Shown here piece by piece: positions 28,996 through 33,161 of a stretch of DNA of 64,000 nucleotides (position 1 is its first letter; the number at the start of each line of letters is the position of its first letter). Position numbers and translations under genes: made by a program. A model generated the notes under the pieces. That model did not search any database. It had not been told where the DNA came from and saw only the letters and a list, made by a program, of their open reading frames with translations. Source of the stretch: Haloterrigena salifodinae (GTDB lineage: Archaea > Halobacteriota > Halobacteria > Halobacteriales > Natrialbaceae); assembly GCF_003977755.1 (NCBI RefSeq), contig NZ_RQWN01000002.1, positions 248,001 to 312,000 on the forward strand. Direction: 5' to 3'.

Positions 28996-30684
28996 ATGCC
29001 GACGGAATCGGACACTCATTATGACCCCTCGCTGGGGAACAAGTTCATCTTCGTCACCGGCGGCGTCATGTCGGGACTCGGCAAGGGGATTACGGCCGCG
29101 AGCACTGGCCGTCTCCTCAAAAACGCCGGGTTCGACGTCACCGCGGTGAAGATCGATCCGTACCTGAACGTCGACGCGGGGACGATGAATCCCTACCAGC
29201 ACGGGGAGGTATACGTCTTGGAGGACGGCGGCGAGGTCGACCTCGATCTGGGGAACTACGAGCGGTTCCTCGACATCGACATGACCTCGGACCACAACAT
29301 CACTACGGGGAAAACCTACCAGCACGTCATCGAGCAGGAGCGCGCTGGCGACTACCTGGGCAAGACGGTCCAGATCATCCCCCACATCACCGACGACATC
29401 AAGCGTCGCATCCGCGAGGCCGCGGAGGGCACCGACGTCTGTATCATCGAAGTCGGCGGCACCGTGGGAGACATCGAGGGGATGCCCTACCTCGAGGCGC
29501 TGCGCCAGTTTGCCCACGAGGAACCCGAGGAGAACGTCCTCTTCACCCACGTCACGCTCGTCCCGTACTCGAAGAACGGTGAGCAGAAGACCAAGCCGAC
29601 CCAGCACTCGGTCAAGGAGGTCCGCTCGATCGGCCTCCAGCCCGACATCATCGTCGGCCGCTGCGAGGACCGACTCGACCCCGAGACCAAGGAAAAGATC
29701 GCGCTGTTCTGTGACATTCCCACGGAAGCGGTGTTCTCGAACCCCGACGTCGAGGACGTCTACCACGTCCCGCTGATGGTCGAAGAAGAGGGGCTCGACC
29801 AGTACGTCCTCGAGCACTTCGGGATGGCCGACGAGGCCCTGCCCGTCGGCGAACGCGCCAACGAGTGGCGCGAGATCGTCACGACCGAGAAGGAAGGGAC
29901 GGTCGACATCGCGCTGGTCGGCAAGTACGATCTCGAGGACGCGTACATGTCGATCCACGAGTCGCTGAAACACGCCGGTTTCGAGGTCGGCGTCGACGTC
30001 GAGCGCCACTGGGTCCCGGCCGACGAACTGGCCGACGGCCACGACGGACAACTCGAGGGGATGGACGGAGTCATCGTTCCCGGCGGCTTCGGGATGCGCG
30101 GCTCCGAGGGCAAGATCGAGGCCGTCCGCTACGCCCGCGAGAACGACGTTCCGTTCCTCGGGCTCTGTCTCGGCTTCCAGATGGCCGTCGTCGAGTATGC
30201 CCGGAACGTGCTGGGCCTTGAGGACGCCCATTCCGCCGAGATGGTCGAGGACTCCCCCCACCCGGTCATCGACATCCTGCCGGAGCAGTACGAGGTCGAG
30301 GATATGGGCGGGACGATGCGCCTCGGCGAGCACACGACCGTCATCGAACCCGAGACGCTCGCTTACGACCTCTACGGCGATACCTCCTGTTCGGAGCGAC
30401 ACCGCCACCGCTACGAGGTCAACCCCGAGTACTTCGACGCCTTCGAGGACGAACCGCTCGTCTTCTCCGGGACCGCGGGCAACCGGATGGAGATCCTCGA
30501 ACTCGAGACCCACCCCTACTTCGTCGGGACGCAGTTCCACCCCGAGTACACGTCTCGTCCCGGCCAGCCGAGCCCGCCGTTCCTTGGACTGGTCGAGGCC
30601 GTCCTCGAGCAGTCCGAGGCCGAGGACGCCGAGACCGCAGACGCGGATGCCGACACCGACGCGGAAACGGAGGTAACCCACTGA
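28996..30684 (+). CDS. pyrG: CTP synthase
   Basis: A 562-residue two-domain enzyme making CTP from UTP, ATP and glutamine. The synthase domain has [20 protein letters not shown] (about 18-37), [23 protein letters not shown] and [17 protein letters not shown]. The glutamine amidotransferase domain begins near 300 and has the nucleophile Cys391 in [11 protein letters not shown] and the His/Glu pair in QFHPEY. The tail of about 25 residues is Asp/Glu/Ala rich. Its stop shares one base with the start of guaA (TGATG), so the two are translationally coupled. Confidence 0.96.
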
Positions 30685-31601
30685 TGGTAGATACCGACAC
30701 GTTTGTTCCAGAAGCAGTTGCAGAGATCGGCGACGAAATCGGCGACGAAAACGCCGTCATCGCACTCTCGGGCGGGGTCGACTCGTCGGTCGCCGCCGCC
30801 CTGGCATACGAGGCCATCGGCGACCGGCTGACCCCGGTGTACGTCGATACCGGCCTGATGCGGAAAGGCGAGACCGACCAGATCCGCGAGACCTTCGACT
30901 ACATGGAGTCGCTGCGGATCGTCGACGCCAAGGATCGGTTCCTCGAGGCCCTCTCGGGCGTCACCGACCCCGAGGAGAAGCGCGAGATCATCGGCGAACA
31001 GTTCATCCGCGAGTTCGAGCGCGAGGCGAAGGACGCCAACGCGGACTACCTCGTTCAGGGGACGATCTACCCCGACCGCATCGAGAGCGAGGGCGGAATC
31101 AAGTCCCACCACAACGTCGGTGGCCTGCCGGAGGTCGTCGACTTCGAGGGGATCGTCGAACCCGTTCGCGACCTCTACAAGGACGAGGTCCGCGAGGTCG
31201 CGCGCCACCTCGGCCTGGACGAGATCGTCGCCGAACGGATGCCGTTCCCCGGCCCCGGACTCGCCGTCCGCGTCATCGGCGAGGTCACCGAGGAGAAACT
31301 CGAGGTCGCCCGTCACGCCTGCCACGTCGTCGAGGAGGAACTCGAGGAGTACGAGCCCTGGCAAGCGCTCGCAGCCGTCATCGGCAAGGCGACGGGCGTG
31401 AAAGGCGACAACCGTGTACACGGCTGGGTCGTCTCCGTCCGCTCGGTCGAGTCCCGCGACGGGATGACCGCCCGCGCACAGGAGATCGACTGGGATACTC
31501 TCCAGCGCATCCAGTCGCGAATCACCGGCCAGAACGACAACGTCGCCCGCGTCGTCTACGACGTGACCCACAAACCGCCAGCGACAATCGAGTACGAATG
31601 A
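30684..31601 (+). CDS. guaA: GMP synthase, ATP-pyrophosphatase subunit (subunit B)
   Basis: A 305-residue subunit that adenylates XMP and aminates it with ammonia supplied by a separate glutaminase subunit, as usual in archaea. The PP-loop is [16 protein letters not shown] (about 25-40). Other landmarks are [42 protein letters not shown] and the C-terminal dimerisation end [11 protein letters not shown]. The glutaminase subunit is not in this window. It sits between pyrG and a DUF7126 gene with overlapping stops and starts. Confidence 0.95.
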
Positions 31602-31924
31602 GCACGGACGCAATCGTCGCCGGTCCCGACGAGGACGACATCGCCACCGCCCTCGAGGCGGAGGGCGCTACCGTCGCCCGCCTCAACGGCGACATCTCCC
31701 GGCCCGCTCTCGAGGAGGCCGGGATCGTCGACGCCGATCTGTACGTCCTGACCGACACCGGGCAGGCGACGACGATCCCGATCGTCTGCGATCTCTCGGA
31801 CGACATTCGAACGGTCGTCTACGCCCGGGATACGGTCCCGGAGTTCGTCAAGGGCCAACTCGACCTCGCCCTCGACCCGCAGTTGATGGACGTCGGGATC
31901 GTCGCCGACGAACTGACCAGCTAG
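31598..31924 (+). CDS. Small protein in the pyrG-guaA operon (DUF7126-like)
   Basis: A 108-residue acidic protein whose ATG overlaps the guaA stop by four bases (ATGA), so it is probably made together with GuaA. The pattern [48 protein letters not shown] resembles half of a Rossmann/RCK (TrkA-N) domain, but the glycine-rich nucleotide loop is absent. It may be a small partner or regulator of nucleotide synthesis, which is inferred from position only. The family name is from memory. Confidence 0.75.
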
Positions 31925-32420
31925 CCGCTCGCGGCAGCTTCCCTTTTGTGCGGATCGTCGCCGCTCGCGTCGACTTCGAACAGACGCGTCCCCGACGTTC
32001 ACGAATAATTGTGCGTTGGGACGGAGTGCGGCAGTATAAACCGTAATACGGGCGGTTTCGGCCGCGTAAACTGGGATTGAAATCGACGGAATCCGGGATA
32101 ACCGTCGAATACCATCGCCCCCGTTGAAGTAGGATCCGCGGCTATCGATAGATGGAGGTCGACGGGCAGACCCCACCGAGGCATCCACCGCCTGCACCCG
32201 TGACTTCCAACCCACCCACAGCACCCTTCCCCCACCACTGCCACACCGTACCGATTCCCGGTACCGACGCAGGCCTTGCACCCGCCTGCGTCCCCACACC
32301 CTGCGGTTGGCACTCGAGGCGCCGGGGTATTTCCGGCCCTCGGGATGGTTCTCAGCACTTTCGCTTCGACAGTCGCTGTCCGATCGCAGCGACGGCTCCG
32401 AACCGATCCGGCGAACCGAC
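31925..32420. other. Non-coding segment with unusual composition and several inverted repeats
   Basis: About 496 bases. A TATA-like GCAGTATAAACC lies at 32031-32042. From 32150 to 32330 the plus strand is very rich in C and poor in G (runs of CCCACC, CCCCCAC), unlike the flanks. It holds nested inverted repeats: CCAACC (32207-32212) with GGTTGG (32305-32310); GTACCG/CGGTAC (32248-32253/32259-32264); and GACGCAGGC/GCCTGCGTC (32266-32274/32284-32292). The open frames crossing it encode odd Pro/His/Cys-rich peptides and are not convincing. A structured RNA on one strand is possible. Confidence 0.5.
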
Positions 32421-33161
32421 TTACGACGACTGCAACCGCCGGAGGACCGGAATCTCCTCGAGACGTTCCTCGTCGAGCAGATCCCAGTCGATTCCGGACG
32501 GCTGCGCGCGGCTTTCGGGACGGATCGTCCGCTCGGGAGTGACGACGAGGTCCATCGAGACGTCGTGGTCGCCGATCGCGACGGTGTCGTCGACGAGTTG
32601 CCGCTCGTGGACCGTCGTCGCGACCGCCGTCGACTCGTCGACGAGGCCGAGGCCGCGCAGGATAGCGTACTCGAGGTCGCTGTAACCCTCTCCTTTCCCG
32701 ATCCGACCCCCGTTCTCAGTGACTGCCACGCTCCCGGAGACGATCAGATCGATCTCCTCGACTGCGTCGGGGCCGACCTGCTCGCCGTGTTCCGAGGAGC
32801 CCGAAACCGTCGTCGCCGCGTCGTAGTCGGAGAGTTCGTCGGGGTCGAGTTTCAGGAAGCATTTTTCGTCGGCGAGTCGCGGAACGGCCATGTAGACGGT
32901 CTTCCCCGCGCGCAACGCCGCCCGCCGGACGGGCAACTGGGGCGCGTCGGGATTGGCCTTGATCGTCGTCGCGTCGCGCCACTCCGGCTGTTCGGCTAGT
33001 CGTTCGGCGGCGTCGTCCGCACCCGCGAAGTTCGGAATCCGGCCGTGGGGCGGGAAGGGGAACCGCGCCTCGCCGCTCTCCTCGAGGTCGTCCCAGACGC
33101 ACTCGCGGATCGTCTCCTTGTCGACGCCGTCGGCGGCGTCGGCGGTGTCTGAATCGTCCAT
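32421..33161 (-). CDS. 5-formyltetrahydrofolate cyclo-ligase family protein
   Basis: A 246-residue enzyme of the MTHFS fold, which converts 5-formyl-THF to 5,10-methenyl-THF with ATP. Visible landmarks are the N-terminal ETIRECVWDDLEESG, then FPPHGRIPNFAGADDAAERLA, GRIGKGEGYSDLEYAILRGL near residue 165 and a C-terminal VSMDLVVTPERTI. The ATG at 33161 is one base after the stop of the MogA-like gene, so the two are one transcription unit. Confidence 0.88.
   Translation of the reverse strand: MDDSDTADAADGVDKETIRECVWDDLEESGEARFPFPPHGRIPNFAGADDAAERLAEQPEWRDATTIKANPDAPQLPVRRAALRAGKTVYMAVPRLADEKCFLKLDPDELSDYDAATTVSGSSEHGEQVGPDAVEEIDLIVSGSVAVTENGGRIGKGEGYSDLEYAILRGLGLVDESTAVATTVHERQLVDDTVAIGDHDVSMDLVVTPERTIRPESRAQPSGIDWDLLDEERLEEIPVLRRLQSS

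Follow-up and report, generated by a model that had tools for sequence, protein, structure and literature searches.

Behind the plus-strand genes for CTP synthase, a GMP synthase subunit and a DUF7126 protein (assigned by Pfam), Haloterrigena salifodinae almost certainly carries, judging from comparative sequence analysis, a stand-alone non-coding RNA gene on the plus strand, at about 32153-32344 of the window, i.e., of the whole stretch of 64,000 nucleotides analysed here. Taken as a whole, our data are best explained, with a probability of roughly 0.6, by a single-copy RNA of ~190 nt, whose synthesis would be directed by an upstream repeat array and which would act in trans. The segment lies between convergent genes, those for a 5-formyltetrahydrofolate cyclo-ligase and a MoCF_biosynth protein (Pfam) being located on the minus strand, and blastn revealed one copy in the genome. 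The features of the locus are listed below.

30684-31601, plus strand: GMP synthase subunit, upstream gene (Pfam)
31598-31924, plus strand: DUF7126 protein, upstream gene (Pfam); both upstream genes together span 30684-31924
32034-32120, plus strand: helically phased A/T-rich repeat array upstream of the RNA (A+T autocorrelation; periodicity at this locus)
32123-32132, plus strand: putative core promoter element GTTGAAGTAG in TATA-box position (conservation, spacing, same element before protein-gene start codons)
32153-32344, plus strand: ncRNA gene, start predicted to within 3 bases either way, end approximate (R1 match, covariation, fixed distance to the core element)
32153-32166, plus strand: helix H1, 5' arm (consensus fold)
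32179-32193, plus strand: small hairpin P2 in the H1 loop, weakly supported (0.833 of cells pair, 2 double-change cells)
32197-32209, plus strand: helix H1, 3' arm (consensus fold)
32210-32238, plus strand: exposed C-rich segment with CACAGCACCCTTCCCCCACCA (unpaired in the consensus fold except for a weak 2-pair stem)
32239-32249, plus strand: helix H3, 5' arm (0.797 of cells pair, 6 double-change cells)
32266-32292, plus strand: hairpin H4 with loop CTTGCACCC (0.897 of cells pair, 45 double-change cells)
32303-32312, plus strand: helix H3, 3' arm (covariation)
32313-32344, plus strand: terminal hairpin T (0.853 of cells pair, 79 double-change cells)
32421-33161, minus strand: 5-formyltetrahydrofolate cyclo-ligase family, convergent downstream gene (Pfam)

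The C-richness reported in the first-pass annotation was confirmed, as the 180 bases from 32150 rank 152nd of 63,820 such segments by C skew, and the maximum of the whole 64 kb is reached at 32162. Folding of the plus strand was better than that of dinucleotide shuffles (z -2.73, 2 of 200 as good), while the minus strand barely surpassed them (z -1.06, 28 of 200). For the covariation analysis we used 73 distinct RNA sequences of the own family (f1, probably the Natrialbaceae) that pass a pattern requiring GGAGG and CTTCC; the diverged L067 and L089-L091 as well as duplicates were left out, and the weak 2-pair stem of the consensus fold was removed before counting. This fold comprises the five helices H1, P2, H3, H4 and T, in which 2791 of 3134 cells pair (0.891; 89%), compared with 0.370-0.454 (37-45%) for slid partners and a mean of 0.850 for shuffles. 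Compensatory changes among relatives, which had been proposed as a check on a candidate structured RNA, were indeed present: 133 double-change cells were observed, against a mean of 37.8 and a maximum of 63 in 200 shuffles and 38-62 in the slides. Relatedness is retained by the slides and left in place by the shuffles. Nearly all of these cells fall into T and H4, with only 6, 2 and 1 in H3, P2 and H1, respectively. The earlier proposal is thus borne out, and we consider the segment very probably a structured RNA.

The consensus of H4 is GACGCGGGC/GCCCGCGUC and that of H3 is UGCCA-ACCGU/GCGGU-UGGCA. Helix H1, with the consensus UGGAGGUC[G]ACGGG/CCCGUGACUUCCA, hardly varies in the set, but the set was selected by a pattern that includes parts of both H1 arms. 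Better support comes, by eye, from L089-L091 outside the set, which display GGAGACCACG/CGUGGUCUCC; among diverged members of the set, L064-L066 show GGAGGCAGCGGG/CCCGUGGCUUCC and L069 shows AACGGG/CCCGUU (also by eye). The C-rich segment is nearly invariant, CCACAGCACCCTT being kept in 64 of the 73 sequences. As for the three perfect stems described previously, local ones do exist, namely GTACCG/CGGTAC within 32248-32264 and GACGCAGGC/GCCTGCGTC at 32266-32274/32284-32292; the fold built from them is replaced by ours. The outer CCAACC/GGTTGG pair said to close it was found with both sides in 1 of the 73 sequences, that of the window itself, and L002-L005 carry CCACTC, CCAATC, CCACCC and CCAATC at this site with GGTTGG unchanged; H1 and H3 take its place. 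The GTACCG/CGGTAC hairpin is an insertion between H3 and H4, which also occurs in the nearest relatives and is mostly shorter or absent elsewhere. In L017, L069 and L084, the RNA has an additional hairpin bearing a second TGCACC loop.

That the plus strand is much the likelier RNA strand is well supported, because of the percentage of paired cells (0.891 vs 0.816 for the complement), G-U pairs, one of which was found in H1 of all 73 sequences, and the promoter. Two results count against it: the complement has as many double-change cells (145 vs 133), and P2 pairs better there (0.911 vs 0.833). The 3' end of the RNA, which we would place at the last conserved hairpin, is a guess, since a scan for sigma-70/T-run signals revealed no T-run terminator.

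The statement that no known RNA family is present was upheld by Rfam 15, with no match at gathering score in the window; the loci of 12 relatives gave no match at E up to 0.5. A single sub-threshold match at E up to 1 concerned the unrelated family Sphinx_1 (E 0.56), located beside the RNA on the minus strand at 32020-32120. By blastn, the segment was detected in 21 of 41 genomes, comprising 21 of 25 of the own family and none of 16 from other families. Model R1, built from these 21 loci, spans 32100-32350 and therefore contains the promoter (53 bases). Among 293 genomes of the order, 70 gave a match; f1 accounts for 58 of them (63 genomes sampled), genus g36 in f17 for eight, f5 for three and f2 for a doubtful one. 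Beyond f1 the matches are short and, by eye, rest largely on the promoter part. Three f1 genomes of genus g10 showing no R1 match carry a diverged form of the RNA behind the DUF7126 gene (L089-L091); at L095, also behind this gene, no form of the RNA was recognised by eye, and L097 was judged by its best core scores alone. Beside the RNA at G100:C14, L068 displays a partial second copy consisting of promoter and H1 and ending in CTGTCTCTTATACAC and an N, which we take to resemble a sequencing-adapter join, so this copy is probably an assembly artefact.

A pattern scan of named genomes yielded 11 stretches, five of them bacterial and taken as chance, and six from haloarchaea, namely Halopiger djelfimassiliensis, Natronorubrum halalkaliphilum, Halorussus amylolyticus, Halorussus aquaticus, Halobellus inordinatus and a Halobacteriales MAG. 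Searching from Halobellus into its own family by blastn, 13 of 79 matched, two of them convincingly. On viral contigs, none of 39 stretches sharing an exact 15-mer was an R1 match at E up to 1. At 15 Halorussus loci, a sequence opening with UGCGGUC 20 nt past the core element folds back on GACCGCA and displays C-rich hairpin loops (44% C vs 29% G). It could not be aligned with the f1 RNA, and homology between the two would rest on promoter and position.

About 100 bases upstream of the RNA are conserved, consisting of A/T-rich half-sites ~10-11 bp apart followed by GTTSAAGTRG. The A+T profile has an autocorrelation at lag 10 of 0.33 in 79 f1 promoters and 0.25 in 15 Halorussus promoters, and the array at our own locus is clearly periodic (z 5.4, 0 of 300 shuffles), while TRF reported no tandem repeats. 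From the end of TTSAAGT to H1 the distance is 22 nt in 72 of 73 f1 sequences. An archaeal TATA box is expected at just the distance from the start at which the core element lies, and transcription is therefore expected to begin near 32153; we regard the promoter and this predicted start as highly likely. The half-sites, lying on one face of the helix, would probably be bound cooperatively by a regulator. The TATA-like stretch annotated earlier at 32031-32042 does exist (GCAGTATAAACC), but is the far end of the phased array and not the core promoter, since it lies ~115 bases upstream of the RNA, which is too far. In R1, the conserved 5' motif is still treated as RNA, an assignment that we rejected because the same motif precedes start codons of protein genes. 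In a number of Halorussus-type loci (L055, L057, L059-L061, L121, L140, L141, L146 and L151), the array between promoter and RNA is dyad-like, with GTTCA half-sites on the left and TGAAC on the right, each ~10 bp apart.

The core/promoter pattern was found in 95 of 392 genomes; reversed as a control, it hit 6 places spread over 5 genomes. At eight loci of other families, hand-picked for a plausible frame (L155 and L172 were left out), the first ATG follows 19-27 nt past the core element; at L167 and L173 it opens just 2-4 codons, the longer frame beginning at 24, and some of the eight, e.g., L163 and L170, may be chance matches. Model R2, which uses sequence only, was built from 43 promoters (alignment A2, 43 of 67 picked), those left out including L115, a bacterial chance match. 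On 12 genomes it gave 13 strong matches, two of them in G194 and one in each of the other 11; as all but one of the 13 are training members, the informative part is the next match in the own genome at E 1.3. Over 293 genomes, 104 were matched at E up to 1e-4, including 60 of 63 in f1. By eye, 12 of 20 hits hand-picked outside f1 and the training set precede proteins with a signal-like N-terminus, three precede other membrane- or enzyme-like frames, three precede RNA-like sequence (L241, L243 and L245) and two are unclear. Other, unrelated-looking signal-peptide proteins are located behind R2 matches at L229, L231, L233, L234, L239, L240 and L244 (f12 and f5), so further secreted proteins may be under this class of promoter in these two families.

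Many of the proteins encoded behind promoter matches share an acidic secreted form, APGNAP ... GPPxDLPxQVPDHV. Pfam gave no match for the protein of L169 and matches below the cut-off for that of L168, and NCBIfam likewise provided only sub-cut-off names. In our own genome, the gene for this small acidic protein (L250) is located on the minus strand at G000:C3:715960-716280. An ATG lies 22 nt past the end of TTCAAGT, with a second in-frame ATG 9 nt further (in G013, the start used is apparently that at 29), and AAA runs are found upstream at -105, -94, -85/-84, -73, -63 and -54/-53. The strict core pattern CCNCNTTSAAGTNG occurs at 33 places in five genomes, compared with 19 for the reversed pattern, and at 6 vs 6 in our own genome. 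Of 30 of these places with loci, seven have a periodic upstream array (p < 0.02) and the other 23 gave p values of 0.05 or more; to the seven, three genomes contribute their RNA locus and four their secreted-protein gene. In G009 and G013, the promoter of the RNA misfits the strict pattern and is not among the tested places. We therefore think it likely that both genes have the same type of promoter; if so, their products are probably made under the same condition, and we lean slightly towards shared regulation of the two.

Of 20 genomes searched, 12, our own among them, encode relatives of the secreted protein; none was detected in the other eight (G022, G024, G018, G014, G095, G145, G063 and G258), all of which have the RNA or the promoter, so a fixed pairing of RNA and protein is not general. 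Among nine ORFs beside the secreted-protein gene at three loci, none contained a transcription-regulator domain. In G194 (f12), L169 has the promoter directly behind the DUF7126 gene, with the secreted-protein gene there in place of the RNA of our family. The chances are about even that a very small regulon, made up of one structured C-rich ncRNA and the gene for one small acidic secreted protein, is governed by this promoter class (a 10-11-bp phased array with GTTSAAGT at the TATA position) via a dedicated transcription factor, and that the same module mainly drives secreted-protein genes in other haloarchaeal families, sometimes at the place of the RNA.

How would the RNA act? Its 5' end would be closed in H1, leaving the conserved C-rich strand exposed; further GCACC motifs would be displayed in hairpin loops, and the molecule would end at a hairpin. 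We infer that the RNA most likely works in trans, with its repeated C-rich/GCACC sites offered to a partner. GCACC occurs 2.73 times per RNA, compared with 0.56 in mononucleotide shuffles of the 73 RNAs; enrichment is weak in the 15 Halorussus sequences (1.53 vs 0.91), and the added hairpins of L017, L069 and L084 carry extra copies by eye. As for the partner, we tentatively favour an RNA-binding protein that would be bound or titrated over pairing with mRNAs, since long targets are not above control and no pairing with the secreted-protein mRNA was seen. The exposed strand and loops might instead pair with G-rich sites in several mRNAs, as in a base-pairing sRNA, which would fit the near invariance of the C-rich segment and its predicted unpaired state. 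A search in seven genomes for the 21-base complement (G-U allowed, at most 3 mismatches), covering long complements and not short seeds, revealed the RNA locus in 7 of 7 and otherwise 3 places, against 3 for the reversed-pattern control, and duplexes with the secreted-protein mRNA were weaker than all 200 shuffles in three of four species and average in the fourth. We regard base pairing as the less likely of the two mechanisms, next in rank after a protein partner.

Far less probable is that the segment, instead of being a gene in its own right, belongs to the two convergent operons as read-through, a 3' UTR or a bidirectional terminator. In our genome, the RNA does follow the DUF7126 gene directly, a convergent gene comes next, and the terminal hairpin covaries, but the RNA has its own conserved promoter, which is located away from the DUF7126 gene in Halobellus (G227 and G263) and Halorussus (G063 and G145), and the T-run expected of a terminator was not found. 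Slightly less credit still can be given to a DNA element with no RNA function, be it an array site for a protein, a cruciform or a G-quadruplex. The upstream array is itself conserved DNA and inverted repeats are present, but the spacing between core element and H1 is fixed and is matched by that to start codons in protein genes, and plus-strand G-U pairs are found. The G-quadruplex proposed for the minus strand is represented in the window by a canonical pattern, yet this pattern occurs in 8 of the 73 sequences, against 12.0 expected from shuffles, and the proposal is not sustained. Least probable of all is leaderless translation of a small protein from the ATG at 32152, which lies at the distance from the core element expected of a start (NTG is found at 21 in the RNA loci examined for array periodicity): a coding gene was rejected for the lack of a kept frame across the 73 sequences, the distance from the start to CACAGCAC modulo 3 being distributed 33/25/15, frame lengths scattering from 5 codons upwards and the T of NTG missing in 7 of 73.

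Returning to the trans-acting RNA under array control, some known systems provide points of comparison. CsrB is a protein-titrating RNA that carries a repeated short motif in loops and single strands. A similar arrangement may exist for GCACC in our RNA; the motif itself is a different one, and its enrichment is weak in Halorussus. Bacterial sRNAs with C-rich loops have accessible C-rich segments in a compact fold. Such segments and such a fold are also predicted here, but Haloferax volcanii, according to PMC3986360, does not use a Shine-Dalgarno mechanism at its 5'-UTRs. The Natrinema sptA promoter, as described in PMC6085418, is likewise a haloarchaeal promoter with several upstream cis elements before a secreted-protein gene; it combines a TATA box with semi-palindromic elements, whereas a phased array and GTTSAAGT are found here.

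Haloarchaeal sRNAs such as sRNA132 and s479 of Haloferax volcanii and the itsRNAs of PMC7002113 are also intergenic, stand-alone and ~50-300 nt long; our RNA is set apart from these descriptions by its covariation across 73 sequences and its phased-repeat promoter. Being conserved, structured and non-coding with its own promoter, it has the sequence properties by which haloarchaeal intergenic sRNAs are recognised. From halite communities, PMC7002113 reports 22 conserved haloarchaeal intergenic ncRNAs without an assigned function and names a conserved 209-nt RNA of Halobellus limi, which could be a relative. A description of the C-rich RNA or of the phased promoter was not found in the open-access literature, which is no proof of novelty.

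To our knowledge, few conserved non-housekeeping RNAs have been described from haloarchaea. Our analysis adds a covariance-supported ncRNA family to these organisms, and links this family with a type of promoter that is apparently nearly unique in each genome tested. If the small regulon proposed here is true, its regulator, the condition under which it is expressed and the partner of the RNA would be directly testable in Natronorubrum halalkaliphilum, Halopiger djelfimassiliensis and Halorussus species.
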